DNA of 64,000 nucleotides. It comes from Mytilus galloprovincialis (taxonomy: Eukaryota > Mollusca > Bivalvia > Mytilida > Mytilidae). Positions 16,055 to 46,439 of the stretch are shown in pieces; position 1 is the first letter of the stretch, and every line of letters begins with the position of its first letter. The DNA lies in NCBI RefSeq assembly GCF_965363235.1, contig NC_134850.1, positions 34,073,102 through 34,137,101 on the forward strand, written 5' to 3'. The position numbers and the translations under genes are program-made. The notes below the pieces were generated by a model. It saw nothing but the letters and a program-made list of their open reading frames with translations, made no database searches and was not told where the DNA came from.

Positions 16055-17010
16055 ATTGTTTTTATACGACCGCAAAAATTTTTAATTTTTCATCGTATAT
16101 TGCTATCACGTTGGCGTCATCGTCATCGTCCTGCGTCGTCGTCCTGCGTCGTCGTCGTCCGAATACTTTTAGTTTTCGCACTCTAACTTTAGTAAAAAGG
16201 AATAGAAATCTATGAAATTTTAACACAAGGTTTATAACCACAAAAGGAAGGTTGGGATTGATTTTGGGAGTTTTGGTCCCAAAATTTTAGGAATTAGGGG
16301 CCAAAAAGGGCCCAAATAAGCATTTTCTTGGTTTTCGCACTATAACTTTAGTTTAAGTAAATAGAAATCTATGAAATTTTGACACAAGGTTTATGACCAC
16401 AAAAGGAAGGTTGGGATAGATTTTGGGAGTTTTAGTTCAAACCTTTTCGGAATTAGGGGCCAAAAAAGGGCCCAAATAAGCATTATTCTTGGTTTTCGCA
16501 CAATAACTTTAGTATAAGTGAATAGAAATCAATGAAATTTAAACACAAGGTTTATGACCACAAAAGGAAGGTTGGGATTGATTTTGGGAGTTAAGGTCTG
16601 AACAGTTTAGGAATTAGGGGCCAAAAAGGGGCCCAAGTAAGCATTATTTTTGGTTTTCGCACCATAACTTTAGTATAAGTAAATAGAAATCTTTGAAATT
16701 TAAACACAAGGTTTATGACCATAAAAGAAGGTTGGGTTTGATTTTGGGAGTTTTGGTCCCAACAGGTTTTTAGGAATAAAGGGCCCAAAGGGTCCAAAAT
16801 TGAACTTTGTTTGATTTCATCAAAAATTGAGTAATTGGGGTTCTTTGATATGCCGGATCTAACTGTGTATGTAGATTCTTAACTTTTGGTCCCGTTTTCC
16901 AATTGGTCTACATTAAGGTCCAAAGGGTCCAAAATTAAACTTAGTTTGATTTTAACAAAAAATGTATCCTTGGGGTTCTTTGATATGCTGAATCTAAAAA
17001 TGTACTTAGA
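16055..17010 (+). repeat. Family A outer copy, left half
   Basis: Begins TTTATACGACCGCAAAAATT, then a GTC-rich stretch (16,110-16,162), then about four copies of a ~165 bp unit ('TTCGCACTATAACTTTAG', 'TTATGACCACAAAAGGAAGG', 'GGGGCCAAAAAGGGCCCAAA'), then the ~145 bp unit. It is interrupted at about 17,010 by a second family A copy and resumes at about 19,127. Confidence 0.85.
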
Positions 17011-17066
17011 TTTTTATACGACCGCAAATTTTGAAAAAATTTTCGTCGTATATTGCTATCACGTTG

Positions 17067-17107
<41 letters not shown>

Positions 17108-19126
17108 CGGCGTCCGAATACTTTTAGTTTTCGCACTCTAACTTTAGTAAAATTGAATAGAAATCTATGAAATTTTAACACAAGGTTTATGACCATAAAA
17201 GGAAGGTTGGTATTGATTTTGGGAGTTTTGGTCCCAACATTTTAGGAATAAGGGGCCAAAAAGGGCCCAAATAAGCATTTTCTTGGTTTTCGCACCATAA
17301 CTTTAGTTTAAGTTAATAGAAATCTATGAAATTTTGACACAAGGTTTATGACCACAAAAGAAAGATTGGGATTGATTTTGGGAGTTTTGGTTTCAATAGT
17401 TTAGGAATAAGGGGCCAATAAAGGGCCCAAATAAGCATTTTTCTTGGTTTTTGCACAATAACCTTAGGTTAAGTAAATGGAAATCTATGAAATTTAAACA
17501 CAATGTTTATGACCGCAAAAGGAAGGTTGGTATTGATTTTGGGAGTTTAGGACCCAACAGATTAGGAATTAGGGGCCAAAAAGGGACCCAAATAAGCATT
17601 TTTCTTGGTTTTCGCACTATAATGTTAGTATAAGTAAATACAAATCTATGAAATTTAAACACAAGGCTTATGACCATAAAAGGAAGGTTGGTATTGATTT
17701 TGGGAGTTTTGGTCCCAACAGTTTAGGAAAAAGGGGCCCAAAGGGTCCAAAATTAAACTTTGTTTGATTTCATCAAAATTGAATAATTGGGGTTCTTTGA
17801 TATGCCGAATCTAACTGTATATGTAGATTCTCAACTTTTGGTCCCGTTTTCAAATTGGTCTACATTAAGGTCCAAAGGGTCCAAAATTAAACTTAGTTTG
17901 ATTTTGACAAAAAATGAATCGGTTGGGTTCTTTGATATGTTGAATCTAAAAATGTACTTAGATTCTTGATTATTGAAGTTTTTTTGGTCCAGTTTTCAAA
18001 TTGGTCTACATTAAGGTCCAAAGGGTCCAAAATTAAACTTTGTTTGATTTCATCAAAAATTGAATCCTTGGGGTTCTTTGATATGCCAAATCTAACTGTG
18101 TATGTAGATTCTTCATTTTTGGTCCTGTTTTCAAATTTCAAATTCTACATTAAAGTCCAAAGGGTCCAAAATTAAACTAAGTTTGATTTTAACAAAAATT
18201 GAATTCTTGTGCCTCTTTGATATGCTGAATCTAAACATGTACTTAGTTTTTTGATTATGGGCCCAGTTTTCAAGTTGGTCCAAATCAGGATCTAAAATTA
18301 TTATATTAAGTATTGTGCAATAGCAAGTCTTTTCAATTGCACAGTATTGTGCAATGGCAAGAAATATCTAATTGCACAATATTGTGAAATAGCAAATTTT
18401 TTTTTAATTAGAGTTATCTTTCTTTGTCCAGAATAGTAAGCAAGAAATATCCTATTTGTGCAATAGCAAGAATTTTTTTTAATTGGAGTTATCTTTCTTT
18501 GTCCAGAATCAACTTAAATCTTTGTTATATACAATATACAATGTATATACACTTTTTACTACCAACTGATAAATTTAAATAATCTTTACCATTCAGTGAT
18601 AACAAGCAGTTTTTTTACATCTTAATATTTTATGATGTATTTAAATGAGTAGTTATTGTTGCAAACTCCATTAGAAATTTGAATTGATATCAGTTTTGAA
18701 AAAGGGAAACGGGGATGTGAAAAAAAAGGGGGGGGGGTTAAATTTTTCTCATTTCAGATTTCATAAATAAAAAGAAAATTTCTTCAAACATTTTTTTGAG
18801 AGGATTAATATTCAACAGCATAGTGATTTGCTCAAAGGCAAAAAAAACCTTTTAAGTTCATTAGACCACATTCATTCTGTGTCAGAAACCTATGCTGTGT
18901 CAACTATTTAATTTTAGATTTAAAAAGTTTGAAGAAGAAATCTTTAATTGATTTGTAAAATCTTGGCATTTGTTTTGTGTAAAAAAAAACCATGTAATGT
19001 CAAAAATTTGATCACAATCCAAATTCAGAGCTGTATCATGCTTGAATGTTTTGTCCATACTTGCCCCAACTGTTCAGGGTTCGACCTCTGCGGTCGTATA
19101 AAGCTGCGCCCTGCGGAGCACCTGGT
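17011..19126 (+). repeat. Family A inner copy, complete, nested in another copy
   Basis: Opens with TTATACGACCGCAAATTTTG, has a (GTC)n run (17,067-17,108), four ~165 bp units (17,125-17,720), the ~145 bp units (17,750-18,290), the 35 bp hairpin units (18,300-18,480), a G run, and closes with 'CTCTGCGGTCGTATAAAGC' and 'CCCTGCGGAGCACCTGG'. TATACGACCGCA and its complement mark both ends, like terminal inverted repeats. No protein is encoded. The poly-Val frame over the GTC run is an artefact. Confidence 0.85.
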
Positions 19127-29202: not shown

Positions 29203-30066
29203 CAGACCTGCCAACTATCCCGATTTTTACCCCTCAACCCGAATCCCGATATCGGGATCGTAAAATTAGTCAAAATCCCGATTTTCAACAAATATACCCG
29301 AAAAAATTATTGTTTACCGATTTTGAAGTTTTTTTTATCAATTTTAAAAAATCAATCATTTTACCTGGGGACATATTATGACAAGTTAATGACCCTACGC
29401 TAATCAACAGTCACAACAGGTGTCATAATTAGTGGTTGTATGTAATCAGATTACCTAATGGGTCGTAACAGTCCTCAAAATTAAATTTTGTATACACAAA
29501 TTAAATTTGGTCAAACACAGCCTTTCAATTTTTATCAATGTATCATACAAGCACAATATGCAACATTTGCCGTAGTTCCACAGCAAAATCATAATTAATT
29601 GAAAGATGAGAACTGTAAAGAACTCTCAAGAAAACATCGTTTATCTTGAAATTTGTTTAATTTTTGAAATCAGACATCGTGTGTCTGTTGATTTAAAATC
29701 AACGCCATTTTGTATACACTTCTACTGTGTTACTGTATAAGCCTCCGCCGGTAAGAGCACCTCTGAATACAAAGAAAGATAACTCAAATTTTATCCATTT
29801 TCTCATTGCTTTGACAAGACCATGAGTAAGACCAAATCATAATCTGTCTTCATCCTTCTTACTTTAGGACATGTAGTTTTAGGTGTTTTGAGTCAAGGTT
29901 CATAGTTGAGAAGGTCTTTGGAGGGGGGAAAGGGGGTCTCTACTTTGAATCCTTTATTTTTAATGCCTTTTTGTCTATTCCTCAGTTATTTTGTCAATTT
30001 TATAATTTAATAGTACAAGAATTATGCAAATAAAAGAAATCAAGGCCTATAAGCTCATCATTAGTA

Positions 30067-33000
30067 CAGTACTTGCAACCTTAGGCGTTACTATTTGAGC
30101 GATCAGTCAGCGGTCATCGATCAGTCACCGATCAGTCAAGTTCGCGTCAAACTCACGTCAGCAATCCGTCAGACTTATAGTAAAAGTAATTGACTGATCG
30201 GACTGATCGGACGGATAGTACCGATCGACCTTGATGACGGATTGAACTTTAATACGTCACATGATAAACTAATACAAATTACGGAATCTTAATTTCGTTT
30301 AATCTAATTAAAATGGCGACTCTTGAAAATCAAACGTTCAATTATACATTTTGTTTATTAATTATTTAGCAAAGTTTTATGAATTGAAATGAAAAGAAAT
30401 GTATAGATAAACCCTAAATTAAAATATCAACATTAAAGAATGGTCTTTTACGTTTTATTTAGGTTATATATTTTCAAAACCGGCGAGTTCTAAAACGGTG
30501 TCTACATCGCAGTTTTTATTTTATTATTTTCCAAACATTCTCGGGAAAAACAAAATGAAAGAATCAGTTATTGAAAAATGTAGTCTATTTTTTTTTTCAA
30601 TATTTTAAATTGTTGTATCCTTATCATCATAAAATTCTTAAAAAAAATTATCATAATCACGGACTTTCTATATACATATTTTCGAACATCCTGGCACTTG
30701 AAATTTCTAGGAGGTGAAATTCTCGGGATTTTACCTCAAACTCTATGGGAAAATACAATTTTTAATTCCAATTTAAAACCAAACGGTAAAAGATATCACA
30801 AAGATTTTTAAAACACATGTCTAGTATGATAAGGAGAATTGAAAAAACGATCTCAAATTTTATTTTAATGATTCAACAAAAAATAAATTGAGTTTTAAGT
30901 TTGTGTACCTATATATGGTAAAACCCGAGGATTTGCCACCGCTTCAACTCCAATATTCAAATAGATAAACACAATCTAATTATCTGATTGGTCAATCTTC
31001 AGATGTGATGCAAGCATGAAATTATGTATTCTCGTCACAATCGAAGCATTTAAAATAACAAATTACAAAAATAACAGTTTTCTGCTGTATTTTTAAACAA
31101 GAAATAGAAATAATTTTAAACAATGCAAACAACATTACAATATATTTTTCTGATAGTCTTTTTTTAATAAAAAAGATAACTACTCCTAAACAATAAAAAG
31201 TACATCATTACATCTCAATTCTAATTAGCAGACTTGTCTCAAGATGGTAAAATAACTGATTTCAAATAAAATATTAGAAGACTTGTCTCTAGATGGTAAA
31301 AATAACTGATTTCAAATAAAATAGTATCATTTTTAATAAAAAGAAGAATAATTTTAGTTATTTTTAACAATGCGAATAAAATTTTAGTATGATTTCTCTG
31401 CCATTCTTTTAATTTTATGAAAAAAAACTATTCAAAATATAAAAAGTGCAAAAATCCAATGGCGGTCAATAATTTTCAGTAAAATGAAGAAATATTTGCA
31501 TTTTAGGCAACGCGTACAAAAATTTAATATCTTTTTCCTTAAAGTAAAATTATTTTATGAAGAACAGCCAATCATTATGTACAAAAAGTACTGAAATCAT
31601 ATGACAGTTAATAATATGCATCAAAATAAATCAATAACTACATTCTTATTCCACAAAAATAAAAGTTTAAGTATTTTAATTCTCATTATATCTGAATTCT
31701 GATTAGAAGACTTGTCTCTAGATGGTAAAAATAACTGATTTCAAATAAAATAGTATCATTTTTAATAAAAAGAAGAATAATTTTGGTTATTTTTAACAAT
31801 GCGAATAAAATTTTAGTATGATTGCTCTGGCATTCTTTTAATTTTATGAAAAAAAACTATTCTAAACTATGAAAAGTACAAAAATCCAATGGCGGTCAAT
31901 AATTTTCAGTAAAATGAAGAAATATTTGCATTTTAGGCAACGCGTACAAAAATTTAATATCTTTTTTCTAAAAGTAAGCATATTTTATGAAGAACAGCCA
32001 ATCATTATGTACAAAAAGTACTGAAATCATATGACGGTTAATAATTTGTATCAAAATAAATCAATAACTACATTCTCATTCCATAAAAATAAAAGTTTAT
32101 GTATTTTAATTCTCATTATATCTGAATTCTGATTAGAAGACTTGTCTCTAGATGGTAAAAATAACTGATTTCAAATAAAATAGTATCATTTTTAATAAAA
32201 AGAAGAATAATTTTGGTTATTTTTAACAATGCGAATAAAATTTTAGTATGATTTCTCTGCCATTCTTTTAATTTTATGAAAAAAAACTATTCAAAATATA
32301 AAAAATACAAAAATCCAATGGCGGTCAATAATTTTCAGTAAAATGAAGAAATATTTGCATTTTAGGCAACACGTACAAAAATTTAATATCCTTTTCCTTA
32401 AAGTAAAATTTTTTTATGAAGAACAGCCAATCATTATGTACAAAAAGTGCTGAAATCATATGACAGTTAATAATATGCATCAAAATAAATCAATAACTAC
32501 ATTCTTATTCCACAAAAATAAAAGTTTAAGTATTTTAAATCTCATTATATCTGAATTCTGATTAGAAGACTTGTCTCTAGATGGTAAAAATAACTGATTT
32601 CAAATAAAATAGTATCATTTTTAATAAAAAGAAGAATAATTTTTGTTATTTTTAACAATGCGAATAAAATTTTAGTATGATTTCTCTGCCATTCTTTTAA
32701 TTTTATGAAAAAAAACTATTCTAAACTATAAAAAGTACAAAAATCCAATGGCGGTCAATAATTTTCAGTAAAATGAAGAAATATTTGCATTTTAGGCAAC
32801 GCGTACAAAAATTTAATATCTTTTTCCTAAAAGTAAGCATATTTTATGAAGAACAGCCAATCATTATGTACAAAAAGTACTGAAATCATATGACAGTTAA
32901 TAATATGCATCAAAATAAATCAATAACTACATTCTTATTCCACAAAAATAAAAGTTTAAGTATTTTAATGCTCATTATATCTGACTTCTGATTAGAAGAC

Positions 33001-36000
33001 TTGTCTCAAGATGGTAAAAATAACTGATTTCAAATAAAATAGTATCATTTTTAATAAAAAGAAGAATAATTTTGGTTATTTTAAACAATGCGAACAAAAT
33101 TTTAGTAGGATTTTTCTGATATTCTTTAAATTTATGAAAAAAAAACTATTCTTAAATATAAAAAGTACAAAAATCCAATGGCTGTCAATAATTTTCAGTA
33201 AAATGAAGAAATATTTGCATTTTAGGCAACACGTACAAAAATTTTATATCTTTTTCCTGAAAGTTAGATTATTCTATGAAGAACAGCCAATCATGATGTA
33301 CAAAAAGTACTGAAATCATATGACGGTTAATAATTTGCATCAAAATAAATCAATAACTGCATTCTTATTCCACAAAAATAAAAGTTTAAGTATTTTAATT
33401 CTCACTATATCTCTATTCTGATTAGAAGACTTGTCTCTAGATGGTAAAAATAACTGATTTCAAATAAAATAGTATCATTTTTAATAAAAAGAAGAATACT
33501 TTTGGTTATTTTTAACAATGCGAATAAAATTTTAGCATGATTTCTCTGCCATTCTTTTAATTTTATGAAAAAAAACTATTCTAAACTATAAAAAGTACAA
33601 AAATCCAATGGCGGTCAATAATTTTTAGTAAAATGAAGAAATATTTGCATTTTAGGCAACGCGTACAAAAATTTAATATCTTTTTTCTAAAAGTAAGCAT
33701 ATTTTATGAAGAACAGCCAATCATTATGTACAAAAAGTACTGAAATCATATGACGGTTAATAATTTGTATCAAAATAAATCAATAACTACATTCTTATTC
33801 CACAAAAATAAAAGTTTATGTATTTTAATTCTCATTATATCTGAATTCTGATTAGAAGACTTGTCTCAAGATGGTAAAAATAACTGATTTCAAATAAAAT
33901 AGTATCATTTTTGATAAAAAGAAGAATAATTTTGATTATTTTAAACAATGCGAACAAAATTTTAGTAGGATTTTTCTGATATTCTTTTAATTTATGAAAA
34001 AAAAACTATTCTTAAATATAAAAAGTACAAAAATCTAATGGCGGTCAATAATTTTCAGTAAAATGAAGAAATATTTGCATGTTAGGCAACACGTACAAAA
34101 ATTTTATATCTTTTTCCTGAAAGTTAGATTATTCTATGTCATGATGTACAAAAAGTACTGAAATCATATGACGGTTAATAATATGCATCAAAATAAATCA
34201 ATAACTGCATTCTTATTCCACAAAAATAAATGTTTAAGTACTTTAATTCTCACTACATCTCAATTCTGATTAGAAGACTTGTCTCTAGATGGTCAAAATA
34301 ACTGATTTCAAATAAAATAGTATCATTTTTAATAAAAAGAAGAATAATTTTGGTTATTTTTAACAATGCGAATAAAATTTTAGTATGATTTCTCTGCCAT
34401 TCTTTTAATTTTATGAAAAAAAACTATTCAAAATATAAAAAATACAAAAATCCAATGGCGGTCAATAATTTTCAGTAAAATGAAGAAATATTTGCATTTT
34501 AGGCAACACGTACAAAAATTTAATATCCTTTTCCTTAAAGTAAAATTATTTTATGAAGAACAGCCAATCATTATGTACAAAAAGTGCTGAAATCATATGA
34601 CAGTTAATAATATGCATCAAAATAAATCAATAACTACATTCTTATTCCACAAAAATAAAAGTTTAAGTATTTTAAATCTCATTATATCTGAATTCTGATT
34701 AGAAGACTTGTCTCTAGATGGTCAAAATAACTGATTTCAAATAAAATAGTATCATTTTTAATAAAAAGAAGAATAATTTTGGTTATTTTTAACAATGCGA
34801 ATAAAATTTTAGTATGATTTCTCTGCCATTCTTTTAATTTTATGAAAAAAAACTATTCAAAATATAAAAAATACAAAAATCCAATGGCGGTCAATAATTT
34901 TCAGTAAAATGAAGAAATATTTGCATTTTAGGCAACAGGTACAAAAATTTAATATCCTTTTCCTTAAAGTAAAATTATTTTATGAAGAACAGCCAATCAT
35001 TATGTACAAAAAGTGCTGAAATCATATGACAGTTAATAATATGCATCAAAATAAATCAATAACTACATTCTTATTCCACAAAAATAAAAGTTTAAGTATT
35101 TTAAATCTCATTATATCTGAATTCTGATTAGAAGACCTGTCTCTAGATGGTAAAAATAACTGATTTCAAATAAAATAGTATCATTTTTAATAAAAAGAAG
35201 AATAATTTTTGTTATTTTTAACAATGCGAATAAAATTTTAGTATGATTTCTCTGCCATTCTTTTAATTTTATGAAAAAAAACTATTCTAAACTATAAAAA
35301 GTACAAAAATCCAATGGCGGTCAATAATTTTCAGTAAAATGAAGAAATATTTGCATTTTAGGCAACACGTACAAAAATTTAATATCTTTTTCCTAAAAGT
35401 AAGCATATTTTATGAAGAACAGCCAATCATTATGTACAAAAAGTACTGAAATCATATGACAGTTAATAATATGCATCAAAATAAATCAATAACTACATTC
35501 TTATTCCACAAAAATAAAAGTTTAAGTATTTTAATGCTCATTATATCTGACTTCTGATTAGAAGACTTGTCTCAAGATGGTAAAAATAACTGATTTCAAA
35601 TAAAATAGTATCATTTTTAATAAAAAGAAGAATAATTTTGGTTATTTTAAACAATGCGAACAAAATTTTAGTAGGATTTTTCTGGTATTCTTTAAATTTA
35701 TGAAAAAAAAACTATTCTTAAATATAAAAAGTACAAAAATCCAATGGCGGTCAATAATTTTCAGTTAAATGAAGAAATATTTGCATTTTAGGCAACACGT
35801 ACAAAAATTTTATATCTTTTTCCTGAAAGTTAGATTATTCTATGAAGAACAGCCAATCATGATGTACAAAAAGTACTGAAATCATATGACGGTTAATAAT
35901 TTGCATCAAAATAAATCAATAACTGCATTCTTATTCCACAAAAATAAAAGTTTAAGTATTTTAATTCTCACTATATCTCTATTCTGATTAGAAGACTTGT

Positions 36001-37973
36001 CTCTAGATGGTAAAAATAACTGATTTCAAATAAAATAGTATCATTTTTAATAAAAAGAAGAATACTTTTGGTTATTTTTAACAATGCGAATAAAATTTTA
36101 GCATGATTTCTCTGCCATTCTTTTAATTTTATGAAAAAAAACTATTCTAAACTATAAAAAGTACAAAAATCCAATGGCGGTCAATAATTTTTAGTAAAAT
36201 GAAGAAATATTTGCATTTTAGGCAACGCGTACAAAAATTTAATATCTTTTTCCTAAAAGTAAGCATATTTTATGAAGAACAGCCAATCATTATGTACAAA
36301 AAGTACTGAAATCATATGACGGTTAATAATTTGTATCAAAATAAATCAATAACTACATTCTTATTCCACAAAAATAAAAGTTTATGTATTTTAATTCTCA
36401 TTATATCTGAATTCTGATTAGAAGACTTGTCTCAAGATGGTAAAAATAACTGATTTCAAATAAAATAGTATCATTTTTGATAAAAAGAAGAATAATTTTG
36501 ATTATTTTAAACAATGCGAACAAAATTTTAGTAGGATTTTTCTGATATTCTTTTAATTTATGAAAAAAAAACTATTCTTAAATATAAAAAGTACAAAAAT
36601 CTAATGGCGGTCAATAATTTTCAGTAAAATGAAGAAATATTTGCATGTTAGGCAACACGTACAAAAATTTTATATCTTTTTCCTGAAAGTTAGATTATTC
36701 TATGAAGAACAGCCAATCATGATGTACAAAAAGTACTGAAATCATATGACGGTTAATAATATGCATCAAAATAAATCAATAACTGCATTCTTATTCCACA
36801 AAAATAAATGTTTAAGTACTTTAATTCTCACTACATCTCAATTCTGATTAGGAGACTTGTCTCTAGATGGTAAAAATAACTGATTTCAAATGAAATAGTA
36901 TCATTTTTAATAAAAAGAAGAATAATTTTGGCTATTTTTAACAATGCGAATAAAATTTCAGTATGATTTTTCTGCCATTCTTTTAATTTTATGAAAAAAA
37001 ACTATTCTAAACTATAAAAAGTTCAAATATCCAATGGCGGTCAATAATTTTCAGTAAAATGAAGAAATATTTGCATTTTAGGGATCGCGTACAAAAATTT
37101 TATATCTTTTTCCTATAAGTAAGCATATTTTATGAAGAACAGCCAATCTTGATGTACAAAAAGTATTGAAATCATATGACGGTTAATAACTTGTATCAAA
37201 ATAAATCAATTATGAACTACATTCTTATTCCACAAAAATAAAAGTTTATGCATTTTAATTCTCATTATATCTGAATTCTGATTAGAAGACTTGTCCGAAG
37301 ATGGTAAAAATAACTGATTGCAAATAAAATAGTACAATATTTGATAAAAAGAAGATTAATTTTGGCAATTCAAAACAATGGGAACAAACTTTTAATATCA
37401 TTTCTTTGACATTCTTTTAATTTCATGAAAAAACAACCTATTCGAAACTATTAAAAGTTCAGAAATCCAATGGCGGTCAACAATAACCATTTTCGTAGAA
37501 ATAAGTTCATGTTAACTGAGTCATATAACACAATTATGTATTATATGTCTCTGATTTTAATAATATTTAATACGAAAATATTAATCAACACAAACAATTT
37601 AACGCTCTAAGCATCTTATTCTGTTAAACTATTTTTACTTTTTTATTGCAATTAATTTTATTACAAATTATAACGTGTAAATTAAGGTGTCTTCGTAGAG
37701 GTCCGCGTTCATCGATTGTAAACACTGTTGAGTTCGGTTTACATAAGAATTTTAAATATATACGTATCCGTTCGATCCGTGCATAAATTTAATTTACTGA
37801 TCGATCGGTGACAGTTGTCAGGGTAACTCTCACATAGGTTATTTGACTTATCTGACGGATCCTATGGGTCACCGATCACCGATCACTCATCGATCAGTCA
37901 AACATCCGTCACCGATCATTCACCGATCAGTCAAGTTCACGTCAAACAGTAACGCCTAAGGTTGCAAGTACTG
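30067..37973. mobile_element. Inner TIR element (7.9 kb) housing a 430 bp satellite
   Basis: The 32 bp ends match at 31 positions and start CAGTACTTGCAACCTTAGG. TA flanks both sides (30,065-30,066 and 37,974-37,975), as for Tc1/mariner-type insertion. Next to each end are clustered copies of CGATCAGTCA/TGACTGATCG and GACGGAT in both orientations (30,099-30,230 and 37,770-37,945). The interior is mostly satellite (31.2-37.5 kb). No ORF resembles a transposase, so movement would depend on an enzyme made elsewhere. Superfamily by TA alone is tentative. Confidence 0.85.
31200..37480. repeat. Satellite array, ~430 bp unit, about 14 copies, with higher-order repeat
   Basis: The block GATTAGAAGACTTGTCTCTA recurs at about 31,701, 32,131, 32,560, 32,990, 33,420, 33,850, 34,268, 34,697, 35,126, 35,556, 35,986, 36,416, 36,846 and 37,280, a steady 428-430 bp step apart from one 418 bp unit with a 12 bp deletion (33,850 unit) and a slightly longer unit near the right end. 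Other fixed blocks are 'CCAATGGCGGTCAATAATTT' and 'GAACAGCCAATCATTATGTA'. Variants shared at a 2,566 bp offset show a six-unit higher-order duplication. Edge units are more diverged. No long ORF, as the six-frame view is empty across it. Confidence 0.95.
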
Positions 37974-38116
37974 TATACCAAAAGAAAAAGAAGAGAACTT
38001 AGACTATTTTAGGAGTAAAAAACAATGCTCACAGAAAAGTCGCTAAAATTGTAACTCTTAAAAATTTCGTCGCGCGCTAAATCCTCCATGGAGATTTTCA
38101 AAAGTTGGCAGGTCTG

Positions 38117-44559: not shown

Positions 44560-45640
44560 TGCTGGCTACTTTTTTGTCGAATCTGCAACTTTTGTTGCAG
44601 AAAGCTCGACATAGGGATAGTGATCCGGCAGCAGCGTTAGCTAACTTCTTAAAAGCTTTATATTTTAGAAGGTAGAAAAGACCTGGATGCTTCATATTTT
44701 GTATATAGATGCCTCATGTTACGAACTGTACGTCAGTTACATGTCCAATGTCTTTGACCTCATTTTCATGATTCAGCGACTACTTGAAAAAAAAGTTAAG
44801 ATTTTTTATAATATTAAATTCTCGAATATTATAAGTAATTGGATAACTATATTTGGTATGTGCGTACCTTGCAAGGTCCTCATGCCCGTCATACAGTTTT
44901 CACTTGACCTCAACCTCATTTCATGGATCAGTGAACAAGGTTAAGTTTTGGTGGTCAAGTCAATATCTCAGATACTATAAGCAATAGTTCTAGTATATTC
45001 GGTGTATGGAAGGACTGTAAGGTGTACATGTCCAACTTGCAGGTGTAATCTGACCTTGACCTCATTTTCATGGTTCAGTGGTTATAGTTAAGTTTTTGTG
45101 TTTTGGTCTGTTTTTCCTATACTATATGCAATAGGTCTACTATATTTGGTGTATGGAATGATTGTAAAGTGTACATGTCTAGCTGACAGGTGTCATCTGA
45201 CCTTGACCTTATTTTCATGGTTCAGTGGTCAAAGTTAAGTTTTTGAGTTTTGGTCTATTTTTCGAATACTTTATGCATTAGGTCAACTATATTTGGTGTA
45301 TGGAAATATTTTATGATCTATATGTCTGTTACGCAGGTTTTATTTGACCTTGACCTCATTTTCACGGTCCATTGCTAAGTGTTAAGTGTTTGTTGTGTTT
45401 TGGTCTGTTTTTCTTAATTTATAAGCAATAAGTCAACTATATTTGTTGTATTGAAGAATTGTTAACTGTACATGTCTGCCTGGCATGGTTCATCTGACCT
45501 TGACCTCATTTTCATGGTTTATTGATCAATGTTTCATTTTCTTGGTTAATGTCGAGTTTATGTGACAGTTGTAGTAAAGCTTTGAATTTAGGTCTATCAA
45601 CATAATATCAATGATTAGTAAAGAAGGCGAGACATTCTTA
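44560..45640 (+). repeat. Family G dispersed repeat with ~147 bp internal units
   Basis: Opens 'CTGCTGGCTACTTTTTTGTC' and 'AGCGTTAGCTAACTTCTTAA', then six units each containing TTGACCTCATTTTCATGGTT and 'ATATTTGGTGTATGGAA', then a tail 'CAGTTGTAGTAAAGC' and 'AAGAAGGCGAGACATT'. I recognise the family from bivalve genomes. Not coding. Confidence 0.75.
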
Positions 45641-45819
45641 ACAATAATAAGTTCCTCAGCTTAAATTTAGATTTTGAGATCTTTCAGCTGTGTATATTGT
45701 ATATATTTTTATTTTATTTAAACTATTATTTTCTTAGAAACACATTCCATTTAACTTATTGTGAATGAAATTGATTCATATATTTTATAACATTGTTAAG
45801 ATTTATATACATGTATGTC

Positions 45820-46385
45820 TTTCATTCATATAAGTGTGGTTGGTGATTGCACAAAGTCAGTGCACGAGTCTTTCATTCATATTAGTGTGGTTGGTGCTTG
45901 CACAAAGTCAGTGCACGAGTCTTTCATTCATATAAGTGTGGTTGGTGCTTGCACAAAGTCAGTGCATGAGTCTTTCATTCATATTAGTGTGGTTGGTGCT
46001 TGCACAAAGTCAGTGCACGAGTCTTTCATTCATATAAGTGTGGTTGGTGCTTGCACAAAGTCAGTGCACGAGTCTTTCATTCATATTAGTGTGGTTGGTG
46101 CTTGCACAAAGTCAGTGCACGAGTCTTTCATTCATATTAGTGTGGTTGGTGCTTGCACAAAGTCAGTGCACAAGTCTTTCATTCATATTAGTGTGGTTGG
46201 TGCTTGCACAAAGTCAGTGCACGAGTCTTTCATTCATATAAGTGTGGTTGGTGCTTGCACAAAGTCAGTGCACGAGTCTTTCATTCATATTAGTGTGGTT
46301 GGTGCTTGCACAAAGTCAGTGCACGAGTCTTTCATTCATATTAGTGTGGTTGGTGCTTGCACAAAGTCAGTGCACGAGTCGTTCA
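45820..46385 (+). repeat. 51 bp minisatellite, 11 copies
   Basis: Unit TTTCATTCATATTAGTGTGG, TTGGTGCTTGCACAAAGTCA, GTGCACGAGTC. Copies are nearly identical, with two alternating variants (ATTAG/ATAAG). Because 51 is divisible by three and the unit lacks stops, a 207-codon frame of 17-residue repeats appears; a second frame is open too. I see no promoter, codon bias or homology to suggest translation. Confidence 0.95.
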
Positions 46386-46439
46386 TTATTTTATTGATCT
46401 GTATTGTTGTTATTTATTTTTATCACTTATTTTACTAGG

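Follow-up and report, generated by a model that had tools for sequence, protein, structure and literature searches.

The Xstir MITE of Xenopus (reportedly Hikosaka and Kawahara 2004) is said to have tandem repeats riding on it. According to a review passage, tandem arrays of this element also exist apart from the MITE (PMC9659126 / PMC12628747). In Xenopus tropicalis, miDNA4 (Scalvenzi and Pollet 2014, via PMC9659126 and PMC12628747) is summarised as a Tc1/mariner MITE with an internal satellite of variable unit number, and a model for it is given in the same reviews. The bivalve elements of this sort, the Cg_HINE Helentrons of Crassostrea gigas, the pearl elements and the comparable MgE of Mytilus galloprovincialis, have central tandem repeats in a fixed orientation between conserved flanks, as set out in the relevant passages of PMC7492417. 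The units of the oyster arrays are presented there as 140-180 bp long; most arrays hold no more than 5 units, the highest number being 29, and there is no target duplication. The prediction is also cited that more repeats lower mobility (PMC7492417). The foldback-like Tetris of Drosophila virilis holds 220-bp repeats inside its TIRs and, in the passages of PMC4079207 devoted to it, has also given rise to satellite-like arrays of kb size.

Here, we describe an element of M. galloprovincialis that is comparable to these systems. Like miDNA4, as the reviews portray it, this is a non-autonomous element with terminal inverted repeats (TIRs) and an internal satellite of variable unit number, and it displays the hallmarks of that kind, namely TIRs, a target duplication, dispersed copies, a variable array and, in the interiors read, no transposase of its own. 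It differs from miDNA4, by description and not by sequence comparison, in its 430-bp unit, in the 2-14 full units of ten complete copies and in a median length of 5.1 kb, which is not miniature. Xstir, to the extent of the review passage, likewise has tandem repeats carried by a TIR element, but in the mussel no arrays apart from the element were seen where examined. Tetris, on the partial account given above, resembles it in being a transposon, apparently non-autonomous, that has tandem repeats inside, whereas the mussel element has TIRs of 32 bp and showed no free arrays where examined. Foldback elements have long TIRs composed of tandem repeats; in the mussel element the array is central, in one orientation, between TIRs of 32 bp. 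Unlike Cg_HINE in the passages cited, it combines a 430-bp unit with TIRs and a TA duplication, and a 29-unit oyster array would amount to ~5 kb against 6.2 kb for the array in the window.

This kind of element is already known from miDNA4 and from the bivalve carriers of tandem repeats, and the family described here is a further member. It departs from the known carriers in the length of its unit, in its size and in its target duplication, and its higher-order arrays are copy-specific. The TIR 14-mer was not found in the literature text searched, nor was a description of this Mytilus element family in the titles or abstract openings of the literature on mussel or Mytilus MITEs, satellites and satellitomes, and the text of the golden mussel satellite paper (PMC12818792) names no MITE or Tc1.

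Results and Discussion

The window, a stretch of 64,000 nucleotides at C13:34073102-34137101 (contig NC_134850.1) in a genome of 1.385 Gb and 331 contigs, holds a complete TIR element at 30067-37973 with a target-site TA on the left (30065..30066) and on the right (37974..37975). With these TA included, the inverted ends (30065-30098 and 37942-37975) measure 34 nt and are 97% complementary, and the TIR proper is 32 bp with one mismatch (31/32 identical), at 30067-30098 on the + strand and 37942-37973 on the - strand. The terminus of the element family is TACAGTACTTGCAACC. A satellite array was identified by TRF at 31273-37484 (+ strand; 430-bp unit, 14.5 copies, 93% matches), from which 14 full monomers were extracted in addition to an edge part, and it holds a duplicated 6-unit block of 2566 bp. 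The only two stop-to-stop ORFs of at least 70 aa in the element are 75 and 91 aa long. An earlier note, made from the sequence alone, had described inverted 32-bp ends with TA on both sides around a 14-unit, 430-bp array and no transposase, and all of this is confirmed: the window copy is a non-coding TIR element with an internal 430-bp satellite.

The left arm begins with a conserved end of ~240 bp or more (30067..30306, + strand), from where, at about base 240, identity among copies declines. Further in lies a 353-bp extra segment (30674..31026), readable as a 352-bp TA-flanked insertion and absent from the other fetched loci. At the same point (window 30671-31029) the C9 copy (L005 161-1131) has a 971-bp segment with no detected similarity to the one in the window. 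The remaining left arm (31027..31223, + strand) includes a degenerate piece of a satellite unit (LEFT 1044-1138, mostly ~75-82% against the unit). On the other side of the array the right arm extends over 489 bp (37485..37973, + strand). The window also holds tandem repeats outside the element, at 16172-17751 (161 bp unit), 44905-45519 (147 bp unit) and 45817-46387 (51-bp unit, 11.2 copies, 97% match).

The element belongs to a dispersed family of more than 100 copies in the genome. The 27-mer at its end, TA included, has 282 exact matches genome-wide (143+139) and 432 when as many as 3 mismatches are allowed; the reversed control has 0 in either case, and the recurrence of the exact 27-mer is therefore not due to chance. 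The ends are thus multi-copy, and single-copy ends were one of the observations that the earlier note had named as speaking against its reading. Pairing covered 100 of the 282 exact ends (C1 to C7:45.5 Mb), of which 78 fall into 39 convergent pairs and the other 22 stand unpaired, with chance neighbours expected at ~0.002 per end. The paired elements are 954-16,585 bp long (median 5,071 bp), and the family does not consist of MITEs in the strict sense of miniature elements of a few hundred bp. A 46-mer specific to the right end has 128 genome matches. The best 40 of 426 candidate left ends are 98-100% identical to the left end in the window and the best 40 of 473 candidate right ends are 97-100% identical to its right end, figures that lean to close relatives. 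An apparent right end of 72% in L095 was explained by a deletion within the right arm.

The architecture of the copies is fixed. In 12/12 complete end pairs on C1-C2 the 430-bp units adjoin at least one end, and the direction of the units, judged by eye, is constant relative to the ends in these pairs. Ten complete copies contain 2-14 full units and gain 417 bp in length per unit (r2 0.995), and the smallest paired copy (L055, 954 bp) retains about half a unit. A 430-bp periodicity of element length was not significant (Rayleigh p 0.25 for the 39 pairs and 0.18 for 34 of them).

The terminal regions are conserved while the interiors have diverged among copies. For 16 left and 12 right ends chosen by the exact 27-mer only, the selection makes the first 25 element bases alike; over bases 28-120 the copies are pairwise 97.6% and 98.4% identical, respectively. 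Left ends then stay near 94% as far as base 360 (94-99% over the whole stretch) and fall to 85-86% beyond, and right ends remain at 95% to base 240 and fall to 78-85%. The window holds 28 GATCAGTCA-like motifs, against a mean of 10.7 and a maximum of 19 in shuffles, and 12 of the 28 cluster in the two ends of the element. These motifs run forward (+ strand) near each tip and in reverse further in, with 3 forward then 2 reverse in the left cluster (30101..30208) and 3 reverse then 4 forward in the right one (37794..37933, where TRF finds an 11-bp unit at 37876-37933). Hairpin pairing is possible in the left cluster, and DNA folding gave z -3.5 against shuffles for 30067-30210; on the right the values were -3.2 for 37790-37933 and -0.3 for 37830-37973. 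The ends look functional by these measures, and the GATCAGTCA motifs have a putative role in transposase binding.

Most of the end patterns used for searching already contained TA, and ends retrieved without TA in the query are the informative ones: TA lies outside 16/16 such ends of other copies. Beyond the TA, the flanks of most copies appear unrelated by eye. Empty sites were searched for in the genome by joining the flanks of 14 copies by one TA, and the best 40 of 6210 candidates were scored. All 40 span a junction: the window site accounts for 28, the C1:66.58-Mb copy for 10 and the C5:32.04-Mb copy for 2, so that 3/14 tested copies have spanning matches and the rest are uninformative, since only the best 40 of the 6210 candidates were scored. 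When paralogous empty sites were aligned, a single TA was found in 15/15 (8 for the window, 5 for C1:66.58 Mb and 2 for C5:32.04 Mb), where the occupied sites, including both TA of the window copy, have TA on each side. These three copies were therefore inserted into other repeats, of which unoccupied relatives remain, and TA was duplicated, as in the insertion of Tc1/mariner elements. Movement as a unit, which the earlier note had proposed, is well supported by the convergent end pairs, the mostly unrelated flanks and these empty sites.

Some copies have multiplied by other means. Three left ends stand in tandem ~6.2 kb apart at C1:2397617, 2403831 and 2410043, with flanks 99.7-99.9% identical, and this triplet at C1:2.40 Mb is, judging by the flanks, an inserted copy that was duplicated in tandem. 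L058-L060, with flanks 99.9% identical, owe their number to duplication of the DNA around them. One may ask if segmental duplication of a single insertion, without any transposition, could have spread the whole family, given the shared flanks in L009-L011 (99.7-99.9%) and L058-L060 and the equal length of the two C5 copies at 102.66 and 102.68 Mb. We regard this as extremely improbable, as most flanks look unrelated up to the TA and empty sites exist for three copies. A ~9 kb array at C3:404790-414150 has one variant end, and C5:672769 and C5:1164894 share that end together with 1.5 kb of flank at 99.9%.

The common plan of flank, array and flank in fixed orientation, known from bivalves in the passages of PMC7492417, would also fit a tandem-repeat carrier of the Helentron or pearl/HINE type that moves by rolling circle. 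HINEs are described there as lacking a target duplication and preferring oligo-T sites (PMC7492417), whereas the mussel element has matched 32-bp TIRs and a duplicated TA, and such a carrier is therefore a highly implausible explanation.

The satellite itself was followed by a 22-mer that is found in 71/93 sampled units and has 910 matches genome-wide (control 0). One hundred of the 910 sites were placed (C1 to C3:108.7 Mb): 71 are inside pairs of exact ends, 28 are inward of one single end at a distance of up to 10 kb, and the last one (C3:52127772) is 12 kb from an end. Hence 99/100 of the placed sites are in the element or no more than 10 kb from an end on its inner side, in zones that make up 0.06% of the sequence there. 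Edges were also fetched for arrays without a listed end, and in 8/8, chosen by eye from part of 369 matches, the array adjoins a family end whose TIR has no more than 3 mismatches. Among the placed sites (C1 to C3:108.7 Mb), free satellite arrays were not seen, although unassembled heterochromatin is invisible here. Taken together, the placed sites and the eight arrays show that the satellite travels with the element; it spreads with it and is confined to it where examined. The earlier suggestion that such a unit could both spread and seed satellite DNA is accordingly upheld for the spreading and unsupported for the seeding, as 99/100 sites are in or near the element, and the same figures speak against a satellite that is found everywhere without these ends.

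Copies that are nearly identical at their ends have different arrays. With units typed at 3% divergence, the order in the window is ABAACBCAAACBCD, including the duplicated 6-unit block, while the C12 copy alternates ACAC and then FBFB, the C1:88.3-Mb copy has a 3-unit pattern and other copies differ again. The nearest-neighbour monomer lies within the same copy for 84/124 units, against a mean of 11 and a maximum of 23 in 500 label shuffles. In the ten complete copies identity is 97-100% over the first 230 bases and 98.5-100% over the last 135, and yet the unit patterns differ; the order of the array therefore changes faster than bases mutate. The window and C12 copies have unit types in common at ~97-99% in another order, and pieces of their arms are ~98% identical.

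How the arrays change can be envisaged in two ways. Unequal exchange or repair within the array, between or after moves, would duplicate or delete blocks of units and so give each copy its own higher-order pattern. Alternatively, the array may be rebuilt during transposition itself, in that repair of the gap after excision re-copies units out of register and every move rewrites the array. Ends of 97-100% identity with differing unit orders are what this alternative leads one to expect, and so are the rearranged unit types common to the window and C12 copies at ~97-99%, but unequal exchange after insertion predicts likewise. Moreover, three near-equal-length pairs (L092/L093 and two others), compared unit by unit as possible parents and daughters, revealed no position-by-position match, and we hold rebuilding on moving to be unlikely. 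A broader form of the idea is still less likely in our judgement: that each transposition, through repair of the gap or of the new copy, yields a new higher-order array per jump, and that length sets no limit to mobility up to ~8 kb. Copies of 12 to 14 units and up to 7.9 kb do keep intact paired ends, and the window copy, with 14 units at its present array length, has empty sites. Local rebuilding of the array within each copy, between or after moves, is the reading retained below.

No transposase gene linked to the family ends was found by end-pattern searches, which covered divergence within the first 14 bases, right after base 14 and right after the 27-mer. Partner ends diverging right after base 14 gave 7 matches, all of them of the family, and those diverging right after the 27-mer gave 0. 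Variants within the first 14 bases had 38 matches against 13 in the control, with no convergent pair among the matches listed. Eight ends at C8:93.8-95.7 Mb read TACAGTACTTGCAAT in one orientation, and two of them, at C8:94723162 and C8:95600906, have a family right end facing them at 3.3-3.4 kb; these are probably a mutated family copy multiplied by segmental duplication.

Several copies contain foreign pieces, and none of the interiors read resembles a partner transposase. Of 14 ORFs from foreign interior segments scanned against Pfam, with two of the five longest pairs read in part, 4 showed LINE-type domains (below cut-off in one case), 1 a PHD finger next to LINE-type domains and 1 a hAT fragment, while the remaining 8 had nothing over cut-off. 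The left arm of the C6:55.5-Mb copy holds open frames of 825, 376 and 739 aa (L056 1695-7379) with reverse transcriptase, endonuclease and PHD domains, which by their domain content represent an inserted LINE. L028 has a reverse-transcriptase zinc finger, and the endonuclease match in the C1:88.3-Mb copy (L057) is the one below cut-off. In the latter copy a foreign segment of 982 bp (L057 3293-4274) lies within the satellite array. A weak fragment of a hAT dimerisation domain (22.6 bits, cut-off 21.4) in the C1:56.9-Mb copy (L017 1-279 with L100) was considered as a trace of a partner and rejected, as the arms and units of this copy are ordinary and the fragment belongs to a foreign piece of ~1.1 kb nested in its left arm. 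hAT elements also give 8-bp target duplications.

DDE_3 domains, a class that covers Tc1/mariner, are plentiful in the genome: the best 150 of 764 candidates were scored and many have open frames of 340-398 aa. None of the 78 DDE_3 matches typed on C1-C7 lies within the 39 pairs. The TACAGT terminus and the TA target are those that we take to fit Tc1-like ends, and mobilisation in trans by a Tc1/mariner transposase appears the likeliest. The same architecture could be mobilised by another superfamily that uses TA, e.g. ISL2EU, which also does so, or an undescribed group. TA target duplication is not specific to Tc1/mariner, which does not typically have long clusters of subterminal motifs, and no partner element appeared in the searched end patterns. 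Set against this are the terminus and target just mentioned and the abundance of DDE_3 in long open frames, and we consider another superfamily possible but not favoured. A Tc1/mariner transposase is retained as the presumed mobiliser in what follows.

Conclusions

Very probably, the family is a non-autonomous, TA-inserting cut-and-paste transposon, likely mobilised by Tc1/mariner, with an array that is rebuilt locally in each copy. Both ends of the element are conserved, and between them the 430-bp units stand head to tail in an array whose orientation is fixed; insertion is at TA, which is duplicated. A transposase encoded elsewhere, most likely of Tc1/mariner, may recognise the TIR, probably together with the subterminal GATCAGTCA motifs, and would mobilise the entire unit, array included.

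It is an issue in the field if transposon-internal arrays expand in place or on moving, and if long arrays block mobility, and both are hard to test with short arrays. Within a single genome the present family offers precise empty sites and more than 100 dispersed copies, whose ends are nearly identical and whose higher-order arrays are copy-specific, and with such copies both issues can therefore be tested by means of orthologous sites between mussels.
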